64,000 nucleotides of DNA. It comes from Thermodesulfatator indicus DSM 15286 (GTDB lineage: Bacteria; Desulfobacterota; Thermodesulfobacteria; Thermodesulfobacteriales; Thermodesulfatatoraceae). The DNA is taken from positions 1,603,244 through 1,667,243 of the forward strand of contig NC_015681.1 of assembly GCF_000217795.1 (NCBI RefSeq), in the 5' to 3' direction. The translations under genes were made by a program, and so were the position numbers. The notes under the pieces were generated by a model, which saw nothing but the letters and a program-made list of their open reading frames with translations, searched no databases and had not been told where the DNA came from. Below are positions 25,558 through 39,484 of this stretch, piece by piece. Position 1 is the first letter of the stretch; every line of letters begins with the position of its first letter.

Positions 25558-25967
25558 TCAATTAAATAGTTTAAATAGACGACAAATGGCATTGTCATTG
25601 TGAACAAAGCAATCCTTGTCTTTTGCCGTTTTCAATAAAAGATCTATAACCGCCAAATGGATACTATCATAGGCCTTCAGAGCAAAAGCTTTCGCAAAGT
25701 CACTCGCTCGCTCTAAAAGACTTTGGTTAAGGCCAATTTTCATATAGTGAGGCCAATCTTTTTTAAAATCTTCCTGGATGTTTTCTAAAATTTCTTCAGA
25801 AATAACGCCTTCACGAAATAGACGGGCAAAGGCTGCCTGAACCTCTACATAAGCGATTAAATGTGTAGCGACAATCTCTGCCTCAAAGACAGCCTGTTCA
25901 ACGGTTAAGCTATGTTCTTCTTTTACATAGAGCTTTACTAAGCAGAAGTATCTAAATAGAGAATCAC
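25558..25967 (-). pseudogene. vapC: VapC-like PIN-domain toxin gene, frameshifted
   Basis: The gene starts with GTG at 25967, overlapping the antitoxin TGA in a GTGA junction, and reads VILYLDTSA, the canonical start of VapC PIN toxins, then stops at TAG (25938-25940). One base back, the reading frame continues LVKLYVKEEHS and on to a normal PIN end. So a single base is missing near 25940/25941. The rest holds the expected acidic residues: first Asp in LYLDTS, Glu in YVEVQAAF, Asp in YDSIHLAVID and Asp in VHNDNAI. Either a real loss-of-function mutation, a sequencing error, or recoding. The site (TCTGCTTAG) is not a classic slippery heptamer. Confidence 0.75.
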
Positions 25968-26224
25968 CGGCGGTCCTCCAAGATCCGCTCGGCCATTCTT
26001 TTACCGAATATTTTTGGTCGAGCCCGTCCACCTTTGGGCTTCCCACCATCCCAGCTGACCAATCCTTTGGCAATCAAGGCCTCGATTCCGGTTTTATGTT
26101 CTCCGGCGGGACAAAGCTTGGCTATCAGCCGGCGATGGCGTGTGATTTCAATAATTTTCCCCTGTTTGACCTCTTTTAAATAACGAGACAGATTGCTTTT
26201 AAGCTCTCTCACCGAAACTTGCAT
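25964..26224 (-). CDS. Phd/YefM-type antitoxin
   Basis: The 86-residue protein starts MQVSVRELKSNLSRYLKEV and continues GKIIEITRHRRLIAKLCPA, a classic Phd/YefM DNA-binding domain. The C-terminal tail (KPKGGRARPKIFGKRMAERILEDRR) is basic and likely wraps the toxin. I chose the ATG at 26224 because AGAGGT lies just before it. It is the first gene of a toxin-antitoxin pair, and its partner toxin gene carries a frameshift. The unit sits at the edge of the defence island. Autoregulation is likely by family. Confidence 0.85.
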   Translation of the reverse strand: MQVSVRELKSNLSRYLKEVKQGKIIEITRHRRLIAKLCPAGEHKTGIEALIAKGLVSWDGGKPKGGRARPKIFGKRMAERILEDRR

Positions 26225-26347
26225 AATACCTCTTCTGGCATAATTGTGGCCATATTTTAACACATGAGGCTACATTTGGTATCTAGCACATTTTTATACA
26301 CGACTCATCCGATAGCCGCCAGCTCCCAGGTCTTGCGCCATACGTAT

Positions 26348-29300
26348 CTACTCTACAACCTCCCCGCCCAGAACTTCGGCCTGTTTGAGCACCGTCTGCG
26401 TGGCCTCTTCCTGTTTGTCCGGCGGGTAACCATATTTACGAAGGGTGCGTTTCACCAGAACCCTCAAATAAGCCCTTACATTTTCGCGCTGGGCCCAATC
26501 CACGGTGACATTTTCTCGTACCAGGCGCACCAGCTCCTGGGCGATCTTTCGCAAAGTTTTATCTCCCAAGACTTCCACCGCGCTCTCGTTGGCCGCAAGC
26601 GCATCGTAAAAGGCCACCTCTTCCTCGCTTAAACCCAATTCTTCCCCTCTTCGGTCGGACTTACGCATCTCGCGGGCAAGCGCAATCAGCTCTTCAATGA
26701 CCTGGGCGGCTTCAATGGCGCGGTTCTGATAGCGACGGAGAGCGCGCTCAAGCATCTCAGAAAAACGCCGGGCCTGAACCACATTTTTGCGCCGCCGGGT
26801 GCGGATTTCTCCCTGCAAAAGTTTACGCAAAAGTTCCACCGCTAGATTCTTTTGAGGCATATCCTGGATTTCGGCTAGAAATTCTTCTGAAAGAATAGAA
26901 ATATCTGGTTTTTTAAGACCTGCAGCCGCAAAGATATCCACTACTCCTTCAGGGTCCACGGCCCGATCCACCAACTGGCGAAGGGCGTAATCCAATTCTT
27001 CTTGGGGACGGGCGTCAAGAGGCGCGCGTTTCACCAGGGCGGAGCGTACGGCCTGAAAAAAGGCCACGTCGTCACGGATGCGTAGGGCCTCTTCATGAGG
27101 AACGGCCAGGGCAAAGGCCTTGGAAAGTTCGAGCACCGCCTTGACGAAACGGTCTTTCCCATCCGGCTGGGCCAAAATATGTTCCTGTGCAGCGGGAAGG
27201 AGGGCCAGACGTTCTTCAGGTGTTCCGGTTTTCCAGGCCGACCAGTCGAAGCCGTGAAAGAGATCACAACAAATTTCGTATTTTTCCTGCATGACCGCCA
27301 CCGCTTCTTCCTGATCAAGGGCCGTGCGGCCCTTACCTCCGCTTTCGGTATAAACCGCAAGCGCCTGTTTTAATTCGCGGGCCAGACCAATATAGTCCAC
27401 CACCAGCCCTCCGGGTTTATCGCGGAAGACGCGGTTCACCCGGGCGATGGCCTGCATGAGCCCGTGGCCGCGCATGGGTTTGTCGATGTACATGGTATGA
27501 AGGCTCGGACAATCGAAGCCCGTAAGCCACATGTCGCGCACGATTACCAGCTTCAAGGGATCATTTGGATCACGAAAACGCCGGGCCAGGAACTCCCGTC
27601 TTTCTTTGTTACGGATGTGGGGCTGCCATTCTGGAGGATCCGACGCCGAACCGGTCATCACCACTTTGATTACGCCTTTATCGTCATCTTCGTGGTGCCA
27701 ATCAGGACGCAGGTGAATGATCTGGTTATAAAGATCGACGCATATCCGGCGGCTCATGCAAACGATCATGCCCTTTCCATCGAGGGCTTCCAGACGACGC
27801 TCAAAATGCTTCACTATATCTTTAGCGATCATGCGGAGGCGTGGTTCCGCCCCCACAATGGCTTCAAGTTGTGCCCATTTGGTTTTGAGCTTCTCCTTAC
27901 GCTCGACCTCTTCTCTTTCGGTGACTTCCTCGAATTCTTCGTCGATTTTGGGCTTTAGCTCTTTGGGTAGCGCAAGCTTTGCCAGCCGGCTTTCGTAGTA
28001 GATGGGCACCGTCGCACCGTCTTCTACGGCTCGCTGGATATCGTAAATGGAGATGTAGTCGCCAAAGACGGCTCGCGTGTTGCGATCCTCAAGCTCAATC
28101 GGTGTTCCCGTGAAAGCAATAAAAGAGGCATTGGGTAAGGCATCCCGAATATGGCGGGCAAAACCGTCAATGAAATCGTACTGGCTTCGATGAGCTTCAT
28201 CGGCAATTACCACAATGTTGCGCCGTGAAGAAAGTAGCGGATGCTGGTCGCCCTTTTCGTCAGGAAAGAACTTTTGAATGGTGGTAAAGATGATACCTCC
28301 GGCTTCTCGTGAAAGAAGCTCCCGAAGATGAGCCCGGCTTTTGGCCTGAACAGGCTCCTGGCGTAGAAGTTCCTGACAGCGGGAAAAAACTCCAAACAGT
28401 TGATCATCCAGATCGTTTCGGTCGGTGAGCACCACCACCGTAGGATTTTGCATGGCCGGCTCACGAATGATGCGTCCAGCATAGAAGACCATGGTCAAGC
28501 TTTTGCCGGAGCCCTGCGTATGCCATACTACCCCGATACGCCGGTCGCCAGGCCGCCCACCTTGGCCCCGCACTTCATAACGGCCTATTTCTTCTCTCAC
28601 GCGCAAGCCTTCGTCTTTGGCGAGCGCAGCTGCCCTCAGGGTCTCCCGCACCGCTACTCGCACGGCATGGAATTGGTGGTATCCAGCCACTTTTTTGGAA
28701 AGCCTTCCGCCGTCGTCTTCGTACACCATAAAATCTCGGATCAGTTCCAAAAACCGCTCCAGGTCGAAAACACCCTTAAGAAGGACTTCAAGCTGGAGGA
28801 CGCCTTCGTCCTCCACTCGCTCGCCTGAGATCGTGCGCCAGGGTTTGAACCATTCCCGCCCGGCGGTCAAGGTACCCATCCTGGCTTCCAGCCCGTCCGA
28901 AATGACTAAAAGTTCATTGAAGGCAAAGAGAGTGGGAAGTTCCGCTTTGTAAGTCTGAAGTTGCTGATAAGCGGTCCAGATGGTGGCTTCTTCGTCCGCC
29001 GGATTTTTCAATTCGATGATGACTAGCGGAAGCCCATTTACAAAAAGCACGATGTCCGGCCGGCGGGTATGGCGACCTTCGGTAACGGTAAACTGGTTGA
29101 CGGCCAGAAAGTCGTTATTTTCGGAATCGTCAAAGTCTATTACGCGCGCCTGGGCACCGGCTATGGAGCCATCCTCCCGGCGATATTCTACCGTCACTCC
29201 GTCCACGAGCATTCGGTGGAAGGCCCGGTTACGAGCCTCTACGGTGGCGCCGGGAGGATTTACGAGCTTTCGGAAAGCCTCATCTAGGGCCTCGATAGGA

Positions 29301-29494
29301 AGTTCCGGGTTTAGCCGGGCCAGAGCATCCTTCAGGCGTTGTGGGAGAATTACCTCCTGATAATCGTCCCGCTCGGCGAAAGGCTCCCCGGGAGCGATCT
29401 CCGGCCCGTGCTTTATTTGCCAGCCTAGGGATTCGAGCCAGGCCAGCGCCGCCGATTCAACTTCGGATTCAGCCATTTTATAAGGATTACTCAC
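26348..29494 (-). CDS. hsdR: Type I restriction enzyme R subunit (HsdR)
   Basis: The 1048-residue protein has an N-terminal PD-(D/E)xK nuclease domain ([21 protein letters not shown], with Asp, Glu and Lys). Two RecA-like motor domains follow: P-loop [29 protein letters not shown] (DEAH), FTGTPIEL, and later [22 protein letters not shown] and IARVNRVF. A helical C-terminus binds the methylase core. Start GTG at 29494 with AAGGA before it; an ATG lies at 29476. GC content looks distinctly higher than housekeeping neighbours, like hsdM and yhcG, suggesting a shared foreign origin. It is the last gene of the island operon. Confidence 0.95.
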
Positions 29495-29499
29495 GATTG

Positions 29500-30186
29500 T
29501 TATTCCTTGTTCAATTCTATAAATGCCTGGAGATAACTTTCATAGGCTCTTGGATCTAAATAAAAAAGCACCTCGCTAGGCCTATATTCCAAAATATCGC
29601 CCAAGACATTTATACGAACGTATTCGCCATTTTCCTCATCTACGTATTCATTAAATACAGAGTTATCTTCGTATTCCAACGGTTTTTCCGGCTCAGAGAA
29701 AGGGAACCGATGGACTGTAAAAAGGAAATGTACAATGGTGTCTACAGTCCTAGCAACAATAACGGCATGGACCTTATCAAGACCTTGAAAGTCTGGCCCC
29801 TTGCCATGAGATGCGAAACCATAAGTATTCCTTAACTCAACTATACTTTGAACAACAGTTTGAAGGCTCCCGTTTAACTTACGTATCGATTCGTTTGCTT
29901 TTTCTTCTCTAATTACATGACTTGGTACGAGTTGGAGAGCATCAAGAGAGGTTTTAAAAAGTTTGGGAAGCTCCCATTTTTCTTCGTATGGAATACCTCT
30001 CTCAGAAAGAATGGCTTTGCATACACTCTCGAGGAGAGTTCTAGCCAAGTCAAACACCAGGCCTGGGTTAGCCTTATTCAAAGCATCTTCAAGAGCTTCA
30101 ATTTGTTCGTGAATATGAGTAAAACCGGATTCACTTGCTTCTCTGGCTCCATACATTACAAATTTAGTAAAGTCTCTATTGTTCAC
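29500..30186 (-). CDS. Abi_C-type abortive infection family protein
   Basis: The 228-residue protein resembles the abortive-infection C-terminal (Abi_C) family. The helical core has [18 protein letters not shown] and [21 protein letters not shown], then FASHGKG, the RN...HG signature of this family. Whether it is a HEPN-type RNase is not clear, because the spacing between Arg and His is seven rather than four to six. GTG start at 30186 with GAGGAAA upstream. It lies five bases before hsdR. AT content is higher than in hsdR, as for the next gene upstream. Function as an infection-aborting factor is inferred from family and context. Confidence 0.65.
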
Positions 30187-30294
30187 AAGGCTTTCCTCTT
30201 CGAGGAGATTCTCCTATTTTTGTTCGGGCTTTTCTGTACATGTCTTTAAGTTAGGATGGATTATACTCGTATATTATTCATTTCAAATAGCTAG

Positions 30295-31908
30295 CTAACA
30301 CTCTTCTTCTGCGACCAACTGAAGAGCAACTTTATATCCCATTCCTTGCAAAAACCTTGCATTTTGCATAAGATTTAATTGACTAAAAAATGGAAGTAAA
30401 GATGTTACATCGCTTCCGATTTTCTTGCTAATAATTACATAAGTAACCTCATAACTCGAAGGATTTGGTCTTTGTGAAGCATCAGGAATCAATTCTAAAA
30501 ACCTCTCTCCGTTATCCATAGTTGCTATTTTTTCACGTATTTTCTCACGAACAGAACTATCTTGTAAAAACACTCTCGCAGATACTGTTCCTTGAGCAAA
30601 TAAATGACTTAAAGTAGCGGATCTTGTTTTCTTTTTAACGTGAATAATCTGCTTTTTATCGGATAACAAATCGCAAAATTCTATAGAAGATACAGCATCT
30701 GTAGGCTTAACAAGAATTTTATCTAAACAGATAAAACTATCATCTTCTTGAGCTACACGTAGATTATATTCAGATTCTCGCTCTCCAGTTCTAGCAGTAG
30801 GTAAATTATAAACTGGAGGAGGTATTGACTGGACAAAACTTTTTACGCGTTCGGCAAAGCTACTGTCAATTTCGAACCATTTTCCCTCGATTAAAACATA
30901 TAAGCGACCTTCATGTATTATTTCCCACACAATGCAATTGAAAAGTGACCACTTATCCTGAAATTGTTCATTATTAATCCATCGGACTGAAACTCTATAG
31001 CTTTTTAATTTTTCAACTGTTAGGTTGTTTGTCTTGTCTCCAAGTACATTTAGATATTCTTCAATATCAAGATCGTCGTACTCTTGTTGTCTTGTTCCGG
31101 TAATACGGAATTTATCTATGGATTGCCAATCAACAACTTCAGGTGGAGCTAAGTGAAGTTTTTCTATATTTTTGTTTTTTATTGCCTCCTCTAATTTAGA
31201 GTTTAGGAACTTAATTAGACTTGGATCTCTTACTTCGTTTAAATAGTCTACCCAGCCGAAATATTGTTTATATCGATTATCATAGTAAGCCTCTAAAATT
31301 TGCTTGCACTTTTCTCCAAGCTGATCAATTGTGATTTGTGCAGTAAAAGTCAGAGCATCAGCCCCAGTTAATCGCTTTGCAAAAGCTTCATCTTCAGGCT
31401 CTCCTGTTACAGCCCGAAGTAAATCTCTCGAAACATCCAAACCAAAAACTCCTAAATCTGCTCCTCGACTTGTTTGTTTTCGGGTAGCAAGCATCATGTC
31501 TTCATAAGTTCTCAAATCTAAGCTGCGCAATCTATTCGGATGAATTCGATTTAGAACTACTTTTAGACCAAAATTAAGCTCATAACAATCTGGCTTTAAA
31601 AGATTACGGCCATAACCAAAGGTAAACGCAAAAATCCTTTTTTCAGTTTTTATAAAAAGTACACCTGAAGCATTTGAAACACTTATCTCATTAAGATCCA
31701 AATCTAATGAGGGTTGAATAAACTCGATCCATTTAGGAGGTCTACTTAACGAAGTTGAATACCAAAACTCTCCTTCAAAAGGAAGTTCCGACCTAAGAGG
31801 AATTCTCTTAAGTGCATCAGGATTTCGTAATGCGTCCTGAAAAGAACTTATGTTATCTTTCAGCAGCAAGACCGTTAGCTTTTGTGTTTTTTTCTTAGTT
31901 GAGCTCAC
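30295..31908 (-). CDS. TIGR04141 / DUF6119 sporadically distributed defence-island protein
   Basis: The ~537-residue protein starts (GTG at 31908) VSSTKKKTQKLTVLLLKDN, characteristic of the TIGR04141 family. It also has FAFTFGYGRNLL, VLNRIHPNRLRSLDLRTYED and TRKQTSRGADLGVFGLDVS. These proteins are found irregularly next to restriction-modification genes; no biochemical activity is established. I chose the GTG at 31908 because GGGG precedes it and the family start follows at once; an upstream start would read through hsdS. It overlaps the end of hsdS by 14 bases. AT-rich relative to hsdR/hsdM. It is probably a defence accessory; the mechanism is unknown. Confidence 0.75.
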   Translation of the reverse strand: MSSTKKKTQKLTVLLLKDNISSFQDALRNPDALKRIPLRSELPFEGEFWYSTSLSRPPKWIEFIQPSLDLDLNEISVSNASGVLFIKTEKRIFAFTFGYGRNLLKPDCYELNFGLKVVLNRIHPNRLRSLDLRTYEDMMLATRKQTSRGADLGVFGLDVSRDLLRAVTGEPEDEAFAKRLTGADALTFTAQITIDQLGEKCKQILEAYYDNRYKQYFGWVDYLNEVRDPSLIKFLNSKLEEAIKNKNIEKLHLAPPEVVDWQSIDKFRITGTRQQEYDDLDIEEYLNVLGDKTNNLTVEKLKSYRVSVRWINNEQFQDKWSLFNCIVWEIIHEGRLYVLIEGKWFEIDSSFAERVKSFVQSIPPPVYNLPTARTGERESEYNLRVAQEDDSFICLDKILVKPTDAVSSIEFCDLLSDKKQIIHVKKKTRSATLSHLFAQGTVSARVFLQDSSVREKIREKIATMDNGERFLELIPDASQRPNPSSYEVTYVIISKKIGSDVTSLLPFFSQLNLMQNARFLQGMGYKVALQLVAEEEC

Positions 31909-33277
31909 AAAATTTCCCCACAAACTTTTCCGCATCTTTGATGCGGATTTGTCCGGAAATGAGTTTGGGAAGAAGGGTGTCGCGTATATTAGCAAGGTTT
32001 AATATTTCTTTTTCGTTGTTCAATATAGATAAAAATAAAGAAGCAATATGTTTATGAAATATTTCTATAAGATTATTGGTCGGCATTAAAATATTAAGAT
32101 TTTTAAATCTTGATTTGCTCAAGTTTGTAAAAACAGAACCGCCAGATCCGATTTGCATAATTTCTTTTCCTAAAATTTTTAAAGTCAAAAATGCAAAAAA
32201 GGGACTAATTTCTTTATATGGTATTACACTATTAATTTGTTGGTTAGTTTGAGAAATCTCGCTTGTCATAACTACTAAACCAGGAGTAGCAATACAACTT
32301 ACACAAATTGAATACGGTGGTAAATATTTATTGCTTTGCAAATCGGCTCCTTTCTTGGATAGATATTTAGTTGTTTGGACAACGAATACCTTTCCATGCA
32401 TATCAGGAATAGTGATAAAAGGAACTTCTTTGCCATAATTTGTTTTATCTTTTGTAGGTGGTGTCTTTCCGCAAACTACTTTACCTAAATCAGATACTCG
32501 CTTAACCCTCCACCCTCTTGGTATCGGTCCAAGAGGCGAATCCTCAAAGGAATCAGGGAAGAGGCGGGCAATTTCTGGAGAAAGTTTGGGGAGGTTGGAA
32601 TCTTCTTTTTCGAGTTTTTCAAGGATGGCACGGCGGCGGGCGGCCTTTTCCGCCAGGGCGTCAGGGATGGGGTTTCCGGCCTTGAGAGCATTATCAATCA
32701 CAGGGTCAAAGTCCACAAACCAGGACTTAAAGATGGCCTTCGCCATCTCCTCCAGCGTCTCATTCATCCGCCGATTAAGCTCTATCTTGTCATCCAACGT
32801 GCCGAGGATGTGGGCGATGGCTTTCTGTTCGGGGAGGGTAAAAAAAGGCAAACAAAATCGGCTTACATGTTCCCATTTTGCGCGAGGCATTCTAGTACCT
32901 TCAGATCCTTGAGATGCAAACTTAACAAATGCTTGGGATGCCATACAGTAAAATAAAAATTTCTGATCAAATCCGGACTTTGCTCGGACAACCCATATAT
33001 CGGTAGAACATACTCCATCAAAAGGTGCTATAATTACTTTTCGAAAATAAGGTCGTAATTTGCCAAACAAAATATCACCTTTGCAAAATTTGAATTTTGT
33101 ACTGATTGTATCTTCGGCTTTCCCCACGCCTTTAAGATGAAGTTCACCTTCTTGTATATGTTCTAATCCAATATAAGGTAAACCTTCTGCATCTTCAGGA
33201 TTTATTGTTTCTCTTACTAAAGCTGCCATATCACCAAAAGCGATTTGTCTAACTTTTGTTCTTTTATCGCTTTTCAT
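31895..33277 (-). CDS. hsdS: Type I restriction specificity subunit (HsdS)
   Basis: The 460-residue protein has two target recognition domains. TRD1 is about residues 5-150 (KVRQIAFGDMAALV to LPFFTLPEQKAIAHIL); a central conserved helical spacer follows (DDKIELNRRMNETLEEMAKAI and EKAARRRAIL). TRD2 starts at LGPIPRGWRVKRVSDLG and ends near NLIEIFHKHI, followed by the second helical spacer NIRDTLLPKLISGQIRI. Such proteins give the DNA sequence specificity to HsdM and HsdR. By eye the central spacer and the very end are GC rich like hsdM, while both TRDs are AT rich, so the TRDs look exchanged. It lies five bases after ietS. Confidence 0.93.
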   Translation of the reverse strand: MKSDKRTKVRQIAFGDMAALVRETINPEDAEGLPYIGLEHIQEGELHLKGVGKAEDTISTKFKFCKGDILFGKLRPYFRKVIIAPFDGVCSTDIWVVRAKSGFDQKFLFYCMASQAFVKFASQGSEGTRMPRAKWEHVSRFCLPFFTLPEQKAIAHILGTLDDKIELNRRMNETLEEMAKAIFKSWFVDFDPVIDNALKAGNPIPDALAEKAARRRAILEKLEKEDSNLPKLSPEIARLFPDSFEDSPLGPIPRGWRVKRVSDLGKVVCGKTPPTKDKTNYGKEVPFITIPDMHGKVFVVQTTKYLSKKGADLQSNKYLPPYSICVSCIATPGLVVMTSEISQTNQQINSVIPYKEISPFFAFLTLKILGKEIMQIGSGGSVFTNLSKSRFKNLNILMPTNNLIEIFHKHIASLFLSILNNEKEILNLANIRDTLLPKLISGQIRIKDAEKFVGKFCELN

Positions 33278-33281
33278 ATTT

Positions 33282-35621
33282 TTATACCCTCACCCTTACT
33301 CTCTCCTCAATCCTTTCTCTGATCTGCGAATACAATCTGGCGTTAAGATTTTGGGGATCGCGTATGCGGACTACTAAAGCGTAAGGTTCTTCTTCTGCAG
33401 AGATAGCCTCTCCCCAGGGAAAATCATTACGCGTAACTACCACAAATAGTTTCTTTCTTCTCAAAATGGAATTTGTGTTAATCTGTCTCCAAGTCCAAGT
33501 TGCCTTCTGAACAGTGCCTTTACTTCGGTCTGTAAGAGTTGGATAAGCTCCTCTCAGTTCACCGATCTTTTCTAATTCTTCTTTTGAAGTTGCAGCATTA
33601 AACTCTTTGCAAACTTGCTCTAAACTTTCTGCCGCCACCAGGCGAAATTCCATGCGTGTAGCTTTATAAGAAATACGAGTAGTTCTTACCGCTGCAGTAT
33701 AAGCAAGAGCGACCCGGATTTCTCGTATACGTCTGCCCGGAGAAAGGAAGTCCTCGGGGAGAGGAATTTCATAGAAGTGATGCCGTTTATTTGGTATGCG
33801 ATCTTCGGCAATTAAAGTAACATCGTTTTCTGAAGAGTTGATTAACGCTTCCAGATCAACCAAACCATACCCACAGACTTTAAGAATATCTTTTTCTTCT
33901 TCGAATAAGTCTTTCCACTCCTCAAGTGTGTCTGCATGAGCAATTAAAAGAGCACGAAGCAGATTATGACTGGCTTCGGAATATTCCGAAAGGATTAAGC
34001 CTGCCAGATGGGTAACATGCGGAGCAGAAAAACTTGTCCCTGAATTTTCGGCAAAAGGTCCATTAGTAGAAAAATCTTTGTTAAAGGATAATTCGCCTAA
34101 CCCTTGGCTTTTATTTAACACATTAAAAGATCCAGCCCGAACATTGATTGCCCAATTTCCCCCGTAAGCCACAAGCTCCGGTTTAATAGCCCCGCCTATA
34201 GAGGGACCGTGCCTGGTAAAGGGAGAGGGTTGATTGCGCCTGGCGATAGGGATTTCTGCCGGATCATGTCGATACCGCTGACTGTTGTAAGTTTGATCCC
34301 ATCGGGCAATGCTTCCTACTGTAATAGCATTTAACGCCGGAGCCGGGTCCAGTATAGCCCACTCATCATTGAATAAATAATGTGGATAATTTTCTTTCCA
34401 AGAACGCCCATCATGTTGAGATGGCAAAACATTTCCGGTGGAAACAATAAATAGCACACCAAGTTCTCTAGCCAATTTATCTAAAGTATAAGCTAGCCCT
34501 CGAAGATGACCGCCCAGGTAAGGTTTTCGGCGATCTCCTAAAGATAGGTTGAAAATCCTACAGCCATAGTGTTCATAAAAGTATCGGACAGCTTCTTCTA
34601 TGTGCTTCTCTAGAAAGCCCGTTCTATTTTCGTTTTTATCATCCAATATCCGGCCACTAACGATCCAAAAAACCGGAATAAATTGACGATTACGCAACTT
34701 TTCTTCTACATCACCATAAAGAGCTATCCCTGCTACCAGCGTGCCATGTCCGGTGCCATCTTGTGGGGGATAATCTGGCAGGAAACTCTGCACATCTCCT
34801 ACAGCAGATTTTAATAAATTATGAGTAGAAACGATACCACTGTCGAGGATCCCTATTACTGGAGCAGTATCAGGAGGAGGTGGTGGGTCTGGAATTTCTT
34901 GAATATCTATATAAAGCAAGGTTCTTTCTAATCCATATTTAGGCGGCAAATCTACAAGGCGCACATCTCGATATCGTAAGAGCTCTTCCGCTTGTGCTAA
35001 AGAAACTTGGACTCGGAAAAGAGGAGGATCTCGCACCCAATCGAGGATTTCTATCCCCTGCTGGTGACACCAATTTTTAAAAGCTTCCTGTTGGAGCTCT
35101 CTTTCTCTTGAACTTTCCAGGGGCCACAATTCCACATCTAAGATGAAAGGCTCGGTTTTAGGAAATCCTTCGTTTCTAAGTGCCCAACCTTTGCGATGTT
35201 CCGGCGTCCAGGCGCCTATGTCTTGCAAGGCATAGATCAACTGCAGGTATTGAGGCCTGCCTCCCTCGGCTAAAGTGGCTAAACGAGCCTCAAATTCTGC
35301 GAGGGCTTCTTCGCTGGCGAAGGCCAGAACGATGTTTTTACCCTCCTGGCTAACGAATTCTACATTTGGTCCTAATTGTCCAAGTCTTTCTATAGGAAAG
35401 GCTTCTTGAATCTCTAAACGGATTAAAAGTCTTTCATCATAACCTTTAATGTCTTTCTTGGCTTCATGAGTAGCTTGTACTATAGACTTTTTGAGGAAAC
35501 GGGCGTGCTGTATAAGATCATCTGGTTTTCGTACTCTTGGAGCCCCTTTAGGCCTTCTTTCCGTGATTGGTTCTTCCCGAATTAATTTTAGATGGCAATA
35601 TTTTTCTTTTTGTTCCTCCAT
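33282..35621 (-). CDS. ietS: IetS-like subtilisin (S8) protease of an IetAS defence pair
   Basis: The 779-residue protein has a 230-residue N-terminal helical/beta region, then an S8 subtilisin domain with the triad in PVIGILDSGIVSTH (Asp), GHGTLVAGIALYG (His) and NSGTSFSAPHVTHLAGL (Ser). A C-terminal beta-rich region of about 180 residues follows (from HHFYEIPLPEDFLS). There is no signal peptide, so it is cytosolic. It follows an AAA+ ATPase gene with two bases between the stop and its ATG. This pairing is the known IetA-IetS arrangement, a two-gene system shown to protect against phage and linked earlier to plasmid incompatibility in Agrobacterium. The naming is by architecture. Confidence 0.85.
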   Translation of the reverse strand: MEEQKEKYCHLKLIREEPITERRPKGAPRVRKPDDLIQHARFLKKSIVQATHEAKKDIKGYDERLLIRLEIQEAFPIERLGQLGPNVEFVSQEGKNIVLAFASEEALAEFEARLATLAEGGRPQYLQLIYALQDIGAWTPEHRKGWALRNEGFPKTEPFILDVELWPLESSRERELQQEAFKNWCHQQGIEILDWVRDPPLFRVQVSLAQAEELLRYRDVRLVDLPPKYGLERTLLYIDIQEIPDPPPPPDTAPVIGILDSGIVSTHNLLKSAVGDVQSFLPDYPPQDGTGHGTLVAGIALYGDVEEKLRNRQFIPVFWIVSGRILDDKNENRTGFLEKHIEEAVRYFYEHYGCRIFNLSLGDRRKPYLGGHLRGLAYTLDKLARELGVLFIVSTGNVLPSQHDGRSWKENYPHYLFNDEWAILDPAPALNAITVGSIARWDQTYNSQRYRHDPAEIPIARRNQPSPFTRHGPSIGGAIKPELVAYGGNWAINVRAGSFNVLNKSQGLGELSFNKDFSTNGPFAENSGTSFSAPHVTHLAGLILSEYSEASHNLLRALLIAHADTLEEWKDLFEEEKDILKVCGYGLVDLEALINSSENDVTLIAEDRIPNKRHHFYEIPLPEDFLSPGRRIREIRVALAYTAAVRTTRISYKATRMEFRLVAAESLEQVCKEFNAATSKEELEKIGELRGAYPTLTDRSKGTVQKATWTWRQINTNSILRRKKLFVVVTRNDFPWGEAISAEEEPYALVVRIRDPQNLNARLYSQIRERIEERVRVRV

Positions 35622-35624
35622 CCC

Positions 35625-36608
35625 TTAACCCTGCTTAATTCGTTTTTGGCGCGCTTCCTCCCTCTGGAGAGCGGCTATAAGATGGCGCTCCTTCAAAAAT
35701 TCTTCTCCACTAAGAATCATTTGTTTAACTGCTCTTCGCAATATCCTTTCAATATCCGCATGACTTAACCCTTTAAATTTGTAAACAATATTTGTGTCCG
35801 AAATATCGAAGTCTCTCCGTACACCACGTAATTTAATTTCGAGTAAACGTCGAATCTGTTCAATATTAGGACGATCAAATACCAGCACTTCTTCAAAACG
35901 TCGCCAGATGGCGATATCAAGAATCATCTCATGATTGGTAGCAGCAATAAGCAGACTGCGCCCACGATAATCATCCAACATCTGTAAAGTGGCATTGACT
36001 ACCCGCTTAATCTCTCCATGTTCTGTTTGGTCTGCTCGTTCTTTGGCTAAAGCATCGAATTCGTCAAAAAGTACTACCATCGGAATATTAGAGATGTAAT
36101 CAAAAATTTTACGAAGATTAGCCGCCGTTTCTCCCAAAAGGGAAGACACTACACTATCAATCCGAACAATCCCAAAAGGACGGCCAAGTTCTGAAGCTAT
36201 AACTTCAGCCGTTAAAGTTTTGCCACATCCCGGCGGCCCACAAAAGAGAAGGCGATTTGTTGGAACAAGGCCATAGCTACGAAGTCGTTCTTCGTAGTGA
36301 TATTCCTTGAGGATTTCTTCTATAATGGAAAAGTTTTCATCAGAAAGAACTACATCTTCGAGGCGTCTTGTTGCTTGTAAAATGTGAATTAAGGGTAAAC
36401 CACGATCTTTATCTTTTGGAGGCTGAAGATAATTCCGAGGGAGATTTTGAGGTCTTCCATAAAGAATCTTTTCCAGATCATTTGCTAAGAGATGGTGATG
36501 TTTTCTTCGTTCTTCGCGAATAATCTCTTCCGAGACTTGCCTAAAAGCTTCAATGTTTCCTTCTATACCTGTTTTAATCAACTGGCGCAAAAGTTTGCCA
36601 CTAGCCAC
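35625..36608 (-). CDS. ietA: IetA-like AAA+ ATPase
   Basis: The 327-residue protein has a short helical N-terminus, then an AAA+ module: Walker A in FCGPPGCGKTLTAEVIA, Walker B in VVLFDEFDALAKERAD, sensor 1 in LLIAATNHEM, arginine finger region in IAIWRRFEEVLVF, and a C-terminal lid helical domain (KFKGLSHADIERILRRAVKQM). The closest type is the FtsH/Cdc48-like AAA. GTG start at 36608 with TAGGAGA at the right distance. It is directly followed by the subtilisin gene, with which it forms the IetAS pair; the ATPase presumably unfolds or delivers substrates to the protease. Confidence 0.85.
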   Translation of the reverse strand: MASGKLLRQLIKTGIEGNIEAFRQVSEEIIREERRKHHHLLANDLEKILYGRPQNLPRNYLQPPKDKDRGLPLIHILQATRRLEDVVLSDENFSIIEEILKEYHYEERLRSYGLVPTNRLLFCGPPGCGKTLTAEVIASELGRPFGIVRIDSVVSSLLGETAANLRKIFDYISNIPMVVLFDEFDALAKERADQTEHGEIKRVVNATLQMLDDYRGRSLLIAATNHEMILDIAIWRRFEEVLVFDRPNIEQIRRLLEIKLRGVRRDFDISDTNIVYKFKGLSHADIERILRRAVKQMILSGEEFLKERHLIAALQREEARQKRIKQG

Positions 36609-36680: not shown

Positions 36681-36752
36681 AAAATGAACCAAAACAACAT
36701 GTTGTTATTTTTATAAAACAATGTTCATTTTGAATTGAACAATGTTCATTTT
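36681..36752. promoter_or_regulatory. Operator-like array of palindromes and 21-bp phased repeats
   Basis: The gap before ietA holds several ordered elements. ACAATGTTCATTTT occurs exactly twice, at 36718-36731 and 36739-36752, 21 bases apart (two helical turns). TGAACAATGTTCA (36736-36748) is a perfect odd palindrome, AACAACATGTTGTT (36693-36706) is a perfect 14-base palindrome, and AAAATGAAC (36681-36689) is an inverted half-site. On the minus strand TATAAA lies between them (near 36711-36716) as a possible -10 region for ietA. This looks like the binding region of a dimeric repressor; no regulator gene is obvious nearby. Confidence 0.6.
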
Positions 36753-37747
36753 TTCAGCTCCCTCTCCAATTCCTCCACACTCGGCAGACTACTCTTAATC
36801 TCCTCCGGAAGAGCACGGGTCAGACGATAAGAAGAAACGCCAATCGGCTTTGTAGTATCTCTCAGAGCATACTCTACGATTACTTTGTTTTTGGACTTGC
36901 AAAGAATGATGCCTATAGAAGGCCTATCATCCGGGTGGCGGAGTAAATCGTCCACTGCCGAAAGGTAAAAGTTCATCTTGCCGGCGTATTCCGGCTTGAA
37001 TTCGCCAGTCTTGAGTTCTATTACCACATAGCAGCGCAGTTTCAGGTGATAAAAGAGGAGATCCAGGTAAAAGTCTTCTCCCCCGACTTCCAGGTGAACC
37101 TGACTCCCCACAAAGGCAAAGCCAACTCCTAATTCAAGGAGAAAATCTCGGATGCGGGCTATGAGCTGCTTTTCAAGCTCACGCTCGCGGATGTCTTCCG
37201 TCAATCCCAGAAAATCAAAAACATAGGGATCTTTCAGCATTTCTTGGGCAAGGTCCGATTGAGGAGCAGGTAAAGTCCGGTCGAAATTGGTAATGGCCTT
37301 TCCCTTGCGATGATAAAGCCCGCTTTCTATCTGATGGACCAAGACGTTTCGGCTCCAGCCATGCTCAATGGTTTGCTGGATGTACCATATACGCTCAGTA
37401 GGATCTTTGACTTTCTCAAGAAGTGTAATGTTGTGATACCAGGTAATTTGTGCAAGCACCTCTTGCACAAATTTTTTATCAGGATAAGCCTCGGCAAAGG
37501 CCCGCATATATTTCAAATTCCGGGCGGAAAACCCCTTCAGGTCTGGAAACTCTCGCCTCAGGTCCTGCGCCAGACGGTCAATCACCTTCGAGCCCCAGCC
37601 TTCTTTTCTCTGACGTTCCAAAATCATCCGGCCGATTTCCCAGTAGAGCAGAATAAGCTCACGGTTGACGGAAAGGGCGGCCTTGACCCGCGCCCTCCGA
37701 ATGCGCTCCTTTAAATCCGCTAAAAATTCGGCATAGCCCGTAGGCAA
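36746..37747 (-). CDS. YhcG-like PD-(D/E)xK nuclease (DUF1016)
   Basis: The protein has the DUF1016 N-terminal half (YAEFLADLKERIRRARVKA, ELILLYWEIGRMILERQ, NLKYMRAFAEAYPD, TWYHNITLLEKVKD). The C-terminal PD-(D/E)xK nuclease half includes FYLDLLFYHLKLRCYVVIELKTGEFKPEYAGKMNFYL (described residues; Asp, Glu and Lys are the putative catalytic set) and IGIILCKSKNKVIVEYAL. Such proteins are common beside type I restriction genes. There is no ATG; I chose TTG at 37747, with GGAG six bases upstream; TTG at 37765 and 37759 are alternatives overlapping the hsdM end. GC rich like hsdM and hsdR. The role in the type I system is unproven. Confidence 0.82.
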   Translation of the reverse strand: MPTGYAEFLADLKERIRRARVKAALSVNRELILLYWEIGRMILERQRKEGWGSKVIDRLAQDLRREFPDLKGFSARNLKYMRAFAEAYPDKKFVQEVLAQITWYHNITLLEKVKDPTERIWYIQQTIEHGWSRNVLVHQIESGLYHRKGKAITNFDRTLPAPQSDLAQEMLKDPYVFDFLGLTEDIRERELEKQLIARIRDFLLELGVGFAFVGSQVHLEVGGEDFYLDLLFYHLKLRCYVVIELKTGEFKPEYAGKMNFYLSAVDDLLRHPDDRPSIGIILCKSKNKVIVEYALRDTTKPIGVSSYRLTRALPEEIKSSLPSVEELERELKK

Positions 37748-37748
37748 T

Positions 37749-39437
37749 CTATTCTCCAAACCCAAGCTCCCTTAAATTACGTTTAATGGCCTCTTCAAGT
37801 TTTGCCCCTTCGGAAAACTGGGCCTCAAGCTCCGCCACCAGGCGCTTCATCTTCTCCTCAAAAATTTCGTCGTCTTCTTCCTGAATCTCTACACCCACAT
37901 AGCGGCCCGGGGTGAGTATGTAGTCGTGCTCCCTGCGGATTTTCTCTATAGTCGCACTTATGCAGAATCCAGGGATGTCTTTATACTCACCAGCACCATC
38001 TTCAGCGCGCCAGGCGTGGTATGTCCGGGCAATTTTCTCGATTTCTTCATCTGTAAGTTCTCTATGGACGCGATCCACCATGACTCCCATCTTGCGGGCG
38101 TCAATGAAAAGGACTTCTCCACGGCGGTCACGAAGACGCTTCTTCTGCCCGGCAGGCGGGCGACCGCTCTTGTCCCTGGTCAGAAACCACAGGCAGGCCG
38201 GGATCTGGGTGGTGTAAAAAAGTTTATCAGGCAGGGCCACGATGCAGTCCACCAGGTCGGCTTCCACGATATTCTTGCGAATCTCTCCTTCGTTTGACTG
38301 ATTGGAAGAAAGCGAGCCGTTGGCGAGCACCACCCCGGCGTAACCTACTGGTGATAGATGATGGATCATGTGCTGTAGCCAGGCAAAGTTGGCGTTTCTC
38401 GCCGGCGGAAGCCCATATTTCCAGCGTTTGTCGTGGCGGAGTTGTTCTGCGCCCCAGTTTTTCATATTGAAAGGTGGATTGGCCAGGATGTAATCGGCTT
38501 TGAGATCAGGGAACCGGTCATTCAAAAAGGTGTCGCCTTGTTCGATCTTTCCCTCTATGCCACGGATGGCGAGATTCATTTTACAGAGACGCCAGGTAGT
38601 GTAATTAAGTTCCTGGCCGTAGATGCTGATGCGGGCGCGGGCCCGGCCGCCGTTACCGTTGCCCGTGGCGTGGGCCTCCACAAAACGCACCGACTGCACA
38701 AACATGCCGCCAGAGCCACAGCAAGGGTCGTAAACCCGGCCCTCAAAAGGCTCAAGCATCTCCACAAGAAGCTTTACCACCGAAGCCGGAGTGTAAAATT
38801 CACCCCCTTTGCGGCCTTCGGCGCTGGCAAACTGGCCAAGAAAATATTCGTAAACCCGCCCCAGAACGTCCTTTCCCCGCGCTTCTTCGCCCTCTAACCG
38901 GATATTCGTAATCAGATCTATGAGTTGACCAAGGCGCTGTTTATCCAGGGCCGGGCGAGCATAATCTTTAGGAAGCACTCCTTTTAGGGAAGGATTCTCG
39001 CGCTCTAAGGCCTCCATGGCCTCGTCCACTATCTGGCCGATCTCTGGCCGACGGGCGTTTTGCTTGAGACGCTCCCAGCGGGCCTCTGGCGGCACCCAGA
39101 AGACGTTGGCCGCCCGATACTCGTCGGGATCTTCAGGATCGGCGTAAGGTTCCTGTTCAAGTCGTTTGCGATGTTCCTCGAAAGCGTCCGAGATGTACTT
39201 GAGGAAGATCAGCCCTAGGACCACGTGTTTGTACTCGGCGGCGTCCATACTTCCCCGCAGGGCGTTGGCTGCCTCCCAGAGCTTGGCTTCAAAACCGAGA
39301 AGTGCCCTGTCGTTTACCTCGACCTTTTGGGTACGACGAGAACGTCTTTGGGGTTTTTGTTTTCCTTGAGATTGGCTGTTTAACTCAAGACCAAGATCTT
39401 CTTGGAGGAATTTGTCGATAGGATTCTTGTTTGGCAT
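37749..39437 (-). CDS. hsdM: Type I restriction-modification methylase (HsdM)
   Basis: N6-adenine methyltransferase subunit. The protein (562 residues from ATG 39437) shows an N-terminal helical domain ([33 protein letters not shown] in pieces), the SAM-binding [15 protein letters not shown], and the catalytic NPPF in [16 protein letters not shown]-terminal helical region ([16 protein letters not shown]) follows. GAGG precedes the ATG; a TTG at 39443 is in frame but less likely. This is the first clear gene of the island operon. GC content is high for the window. Confidence 0.94.
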
Positions 39438-39484
39438 AAGCAAACCTCGATTAGTATTTTATAGTTTTGATATGCTTTATCTTT

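Follow-up and report, generated by a model that had tools for sequence, protein, structure and literature searches.

A predicted HEPN-fold RNase and a separate DUF6119 accessory in the hsdS–hsdR interval of a type I restriction-modification operon of Thermodesulfatator indicus

Two adjacent AT-rich genes lie between hsdS and hsdR in a type I restriction-modification (R-M) operon of Thermodesulfatator indicus DSM 15286, which raises the question of whether they form a single abortive unit or are separate accessories, and of what either would do beside a restriction complex. In the window (the whole 64,000-nucleotide stretch that was analysed), all genes of the operon are on the minus strand, in the order hsdM, DUF1016/YhcG, IetA, IetS, hsdS, TIGR04141/DUF6119, Abi_C, and hsdR. 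The gene of the type I methyltransferase subunit, hsdM (37749..39443; N6_Mtase, E = 3.4e-108; HsdM_N, E = 9.9e-31), is followed by a further operon accessory encoding a DUF1016/YhcG PD-(D/E)XK protein (36746..37765; PF06250, E = 2.8e-69; PF17761, E = 5.2e-50), and then by IetA (35625–36608; PADLOC IetA, E = 5.6e-97) and IetS (33282–35621; PADLOC IetS, E = 1.2e-255), a known defence pair set within the operon (33282..36608) and adjoining hsdS. The gene of the specificity subunit, hsdS (31895..33277; PF01420 Methylase_S, E = 3.5e-35), is overlapped by 14 nt by the gene of the TIGR04141/DUF6119 protein, which has 537 amino acids when read from the GTG at 31908 (30295..31908; PF19614, E = 1e-167; TIGR04141, E = 2.6e-155); a longer open reading frame with a TTG start extends to 31995. 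Next comes the gene of a 228-amino-acid predicted HEPN protein of the Abi_C/AbiJ family with a GTG start (29500..30186; PF14355), whose residues 169–228, with the stop codon, make up a C-terminal module (29500..29682), and only 5 nt separate its end from the start of hsdR, the gene of the restriction subunit (26348..29494; TIGR00348 hsdR, E = 5.6e-186; HSDR_N, E = 3.3e-52). The sequence-only reading had placed both genes correctly between hsdS and hsdR, at these coordinates, and had named their families (PF14355 and PF19614/TIGR04141) correctly. On the 3′ side of hsdR, two overlapping minus-strand reading frames (25558–26263) resemble, by eye, a PIN-domain toxin and a Phd-type antitoxin.

The same reading had taken the pair for one AT-rich insertion next to a GC-rich hsdR. 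The compositions themselves are as described (GC content of 0.354 for DUF6119, 0.396 for Abi_C, and 0.547 for hsdR), but hsdS, at 0.385, is AT-rich to almost the same degree, and the whole window averages 0.413, so base composition does not set the pair apart as a single insertion; each gene also occurs alone in the hsdS–hsdR slot elsewhere, and the idea of one insertion was rejected. The GC outliers of the locus are hsdM (0.539) and hsdR, not the two AT-rich accessories.

Whether the two genes belong together was then a matter of their neighbours in other genomes. Neighbour counts, based on a search of all open reading frames, were made at 94 DUF6119 loci, comprising 80 from the genome collection (the best 80 of 399 confirmed relatives), ten from plasmids, and four further genome loci. 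An Abi_C gene was found nearby at only two of them. In Thermosulfurimonas dismutans S95, it lies on the same strand, 109 nt past DUF6119, and in the other locus (L029), an AbiJ_NTD3–Abi_C gene is on the strand opposite to DUF6119; co-oriented adjacency was thus seen at 1 of 94 loci, and there in a near-copy of the operon in the window. Across DUF6119, Abi_C, and hsdR, the two operons share 95.7% DNA identity, with 91% for hsdM and 89% for DUF1016, and the T. dismutans hsdS matches that of the window only in part. The T. dismutans operon contained no match to IetA or IetS and no DNA match to the IetAS stretch, and the operon flanks of the two genomes had no DNA match to each other. The high identity between unmatched flanks suggests that the operon was recently exchanged between families within one order, and because the T. 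dismutans operon is a near-copy, the adjacent pair is known from one lineage only. Cassettes seem to enter and leave this operon, with IetAS present here and none matched in T. dismutans. In the latter, three small open reading frames lie between hsdM and DUF1016.

Beyond this lineage, each gene uses the hsdS–hsdR slot without the other. After the exclusion of 28 short duplicate or partial loci, 29 hsdS–hsdR intervals contained DUF6119 only (11), an Abi_C or module protein only (11), both (1, T. dismutans), or neither (6); these counts are not frequencies because the loci were collected by searches for one gene or the other. DUF6119 was found in 1 of the 10 family genomes and 6 of the 395 phylum genomes, and Abi_C in 23 of the latter; three of the 395 carry both, in one case (G318) on separate contigs. 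These figures speak against the proposal that the pair is one abortive module, in which TIGR04141 would sense or neutralise and Abi_C would kill, the two acting jointly when restriction fails. The genes are indeed same-strand neighbours in both the window and T. dismutans, where they have been kept together with hsdR despite the unmatched flanks, but with the arrangement confined to a single lineage, we regard a joint module as very unlikely. What survives of the proposal is a response to restriction failure by the Abi_C protein alone, which is plausible in view of its HEPN-like fold, its constant place in the hsdS–hsdR interval, and its prrC-like gene order.

The DUF6119 protein is a typical member of its family, with full-length profile matches far over the cut-offs (517.8 bits against 35 and 559.4 bits against 27), and its gene also comes after hsdS in other genomes that have no Abi_C gene there. 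Its neighbours are mixed; the highest Pfam tally was 2 of 38, and an alignment of neighbours used 38 of 53. No sequence match to solved structures was obtained, and no match was found in the viral contigs. In the open-licence literature, searches for TIGR04141 or "sporadically distributed protein" returned no paper, and those for DUF6119 returned one unrelated paper. Structure prediction, which had been proposed for TIGR04141, gave a confident model (pLDDT 87.4), whose likeness to known folds is weak. The C-terminal domain (residues 356–537) was closest to EndoMS (Z 7.0, rmsd 2.9, 101 aligned residues), followed by HamA (Z 6.4, 4.5, 149), SfsA (Z 6.4, 3.4, 108), and SduA (Z 5.5), all with Z below 8, and the ten best VIA rows were for what we take to be PD-(D/E)XK-fold proteins. 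In an alignment of 57 of 69 suitable relatives from the 80 loci, all 58 rows had E378, D396, E410, D413, and Q439, and 57 of them had K425. Compared with the PD-(D/E)XK nucleases Hachiman HamA, Shedu SduA, and EndoMS, the protein has different N-terminal domains, and H423-V-K425 takes the place of (D/E)-x-K, with H in all 58 rows and K in 57.

In our reading, DUF6119 is a separate accessory and probably a PD-(D/E)XK-type DNA-acting protein, likely a nuclease or DNA-binding accessory, and a joint role with Abi_C is not indicated. Alternatively, the locus could have DUF6119 as its effector, in the form of a PD-(D/E)XK nuclease backing up hsdR, with Abi_C secondary. The invariant residues and the structural matches agree with such a function, as does the presence of an hsd gene within 6 kb on the DUF6119 strand at 18 of 80 loci, where the other strand has one at 3 of 80. 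Nevertheless, 62 of the 80 loci have no same-strand hsd gene within that distance, the Z-scores are low, and the H-x-K motif departs from the usual one, so we consider this role for DUF6119 unlikely. Two further features of the family were observed. Residues 9–214 of the model weakly resemble RdgC (PDB 2owl, Z 4.9, rmsd 4.3, 169 aligned), and a comparison of the model with the viral library returned rows for phage RdgC together with a single row for a phage exonuclease (E = 4e-5). At six loci, mostly alphaproteobacterial, a protein family of 446–464 amino acids is encoded with a 4 nt overlap with the DUF6119 start (L002:7643-8983, L080:7655-8995, L084:6914-8254, L088:7610-8995, L093:156-1550, and L095:7601-8995); the L002 member had no Pfam match, and this protein may be a genuine DUF6119 partner at those six loci.

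The partner gene does belong to an abortive infection family, as had been claimed: the Pfam Abi_C match (PF14355) reaches 75 bits against a curated cut-off of 24, and PADLOC also assigns the protein to AbiJ (E = 2e-11). Its AlphaFold model is good over most of residues 10–160 and has low pLDDT at residues 164–211. The best PDB matches of residues 19–162 were HEPN proteins, namely 3o10 (Z 11.0, rmsd 3.0, 124 aligned), 1o3u (Z 10.8, 3.3, 115), and 2hsb (Z 10.6, 3.2, 118), and most of the top 20 structural rows were HEPN or HEPN-toxin entries; the Z-scores, around 11, are below the value of about 13 that the tool advises for helical bundles. Foldseek returned no PDB match at E ≤ 0.001, and a search of solved structures by sequence gave nothing useful. 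Pfam found only Abi_C in the 228 amino acids, with no NTPase match. Among viral contigs, a single-protein scan yielded pattern matches and no relative, and an alignment-based scan found four loci; a phage search produced one partial match only. The DNA of the Abi_C gene from Paraburkholderia FT54 had no match in E. coli genomes.

Five residues of this protein (R119, N120, S126, H127, and G128) are invariant in all seven aligned rows. The spacing is R-x7-H, one residue above the range of Rx4-6H, with a polar residue after R, given for HEPN RNases in the available part of a survey of the superfamily (PMC3710099). This difference from the catalytic motif, together with the slot position and a conserved module that would suit a subunit, would fit a protein whose HEPN fold is inactive and which regulates the Hsd complex or helps to assemble it. 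However, R, N, and H are retained in relatives of about 40% identity, and R-N-x4-H is kept in two other module carriers, as expected for catalysis, which makes an inactive regulator decidedly unlikely.

The C-terminus of the Abi_C protein forms a module of its own. The full-length relatives share there some 60 residues in which Y, D, FN, D, S..LF, and AY are conserved (alignment A7), and no Pfam family covers this stretch in the Abi_C proteins. When a profile of this module was run on the open reading frames of 164 loci, with repeated fetches not counted, 12 places outside the window scored E < 1e-4, and all 13 carriers, the window included, lie in the hsdS–hsdR interval. They represent approximately eight lineages (the window and T. 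dismutans; L131–L133; L110 and L134; L151 and L152; L126; L153; L155; and L162). The full-length relatives in Paraburkholderia FT54 (L110), four viral contigs (L131–L134), and G392, G461, G463, and G592 all occupy the slot without DUF6119, in reading frames that mostly overlap or nearly touch. Conversely, the slot holds none of the 26 Abi_C proteins without the module, drawn from 20 fetched regions and six earlier loci (L112, L113, and L127–L130); one of them (L184) is encoded next to hsdM and hsdS. A Pfam table lists 25 of 106 families, and a single restriction gene could sit in the remainder. The module-free set leaves out G035, G249, G154, G510:C3, G420, L029, L111, L164, and some plasmid matches. 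Both sets of proteins were selected by sequence and not by position. The contrast of 13/13 with 0/26 is the strongest evidence tying the module to the restriction complex. A weak match in a methyltransferase-like protein encoded at a distance from hsd genes (L163; E = 0.0066, 22 of 63 positions) is outside the 13, as is a seemingly decayed Abi_C/module gene that follows hsdS beside a shortened hsdR (G621; L154:9047-12534), where the sequence suggests loss of the whole system.

Two carriers have the module without an Abi_C domain. In L155, it is N-terminal in a protein of 348 amino acids with the motif RNGFMH, and in L162, which is counted as a carrier by its module E-value of 4e-6 only, it is C-terminal in a protein of 215 amino acids with the motif RNEQYH; both genes lie exactly between hsdS and hsdR. 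Neither protein had an Abi_C match or any Pfam or PADLOC family, except for two chance-level Pfam rows for L155. The motifs lead us to infer that their effector parts are HEPN domains, and the occurrence of R-N-x4-H without Abi_C suggests that the module may dock interchangeable RNases. A general function as a type I restriction docking element, by which such RNases would be plugged into the Hsd complex, is possible and is put forward tentatively.

A competing explanation is that the hsdS–hsdR junction is a tolerant, co-transcribed hotspot for defence genes, which could house the Abi_C gene without any physical coupling, and in which neither Abi_C nor DUF6119 would respond to the condition of the Hsd complex. 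Reports of DarTG2 and a two-gene pair between hsdS and hsdR in the accessible text of PMC12255303 make this a known slot for defence genes. Many unrelated genes occupy it, including HrgA in L011 and extra genes in L040, L058, and L153, and IetAS adjoins hsdS in the window. A mere hotspot nevertheless leaves unexplained why the module occurs in this slot alone and in company with different effector parts, and we find it a doubtful account, though one that carries some weight. In L126, a gene pair of an M78-peptidase and DUF4411 lies between hsdM and hsdS (L126:10034-11682), and the genes between Abi_C and hsdR in L153 (L153:7385-9036) are equal in length to that pair.

PrrC is the textbook example of an RNase that guards a restriction enzyme. 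In the portion of PMC3014915 that was available, the gene order is hsdM–hsdS–prrC–hsdR and PrrC, an anticodon nuclease, is silenced by the type Ic R-M system EcoprrI; its HEPN assignment comes from the HEPN survey (PMC3710099, in part). The Abi_C gene resembles prrC in being a predicted HEPN-class RNase gene in the order hsdM–hsdS–X–hsdR. PrrC differs in having an ABC-type NTPase part, which regulates it, and in its length of about 396 amino acids, whereas the Abi_C protein combines a predicted AbiJ-type HEPN domain with the module in 228 residues. Because the NTPase part is absent, the protein is PrrC-like in the model proposed here but is not a PrrC. It has in common with the solo AbiJ proteins an R-M operon setting and a predicted Abi_C/AbiJ HEPN domain that lacks the N-terminal domain of AbiJ. 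The available part of the 2013 survey states that AbiJ proteins without N-terminal domains are more often found in R-M operons, and predicts guardian roles for R-M-linked HEPN families, including solo AbiJ (PMC3710099). The protein in the window differs from these in its slot-specific C-terminal module and in a spacing of R-x7-H, where R-x6-H is found in the five aligned relatives that have no module. It agrees with the guardian role that the survey predicted, to which it adds a putative docking element.

We therefore favour, with a probability of about 0.58, the reading in which Abi_C is a predicted HEPN-fold RNase that guards the Hsd complex and DUF6119 is a separate accessory. The operon would have taken up the two accessory genes separately in the hsdS–hsdR interval, and the slot-specific module would attach the predicted AbiJ-family RNase to the Hsd complex, keeping it silent. 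A phage that blocked or dismantled the complex would release the RNase, which would then cut RNA (tRNA or mRNA) and stop the infected cell; parts of PMC12707154 and PMC3874165 are cited beside this proposed mode of action. PrrC operates in this way with EcoprrI, masked by the Hsd complex and freed by an anti-restriction factor. The analysis itself shows which genes are present and in what order, that the two genes are independent, that the module goes with the slot, and that the model is HEPN-like. For the Abi_C protein, we infer the RNase activity, the silencing, the docking, and the trigger, and docking is a guess from genomic position because the module was modelled at low confidence. Against the guard model stand the R-x7-H spacing outside Rx4-6H, the absence of the NTPase part by which PrrC is regulated, the HEPN Z-scores below 13 and the lack of a Foldseek match, the small number of lineages (about eight) that carry the module, and the general use of the slot by defence genes.

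For the biology of these families, the first consequence is that TIGR04141 and Abi_C are not a recurrent pair, which removes a false lead. The guardian role of solo AbiJ was already predicted in the available part of the survey (PMC3710099), and the new part is the slot-specific module, which was absent from the open-licence literature found, including that portion of the survey. If it is indeed a docking element, Abi_C-type and other HEPN-like effectors would share a common socket whose coding sequence lies between those of HsdS and HsdR, and the guarding of restriction in the manner of PrrC would be a modular class and not a single case. A module that keeps to one slot in several lineages, and with more than one type of effector, would then be a simple handle for finding further guards.
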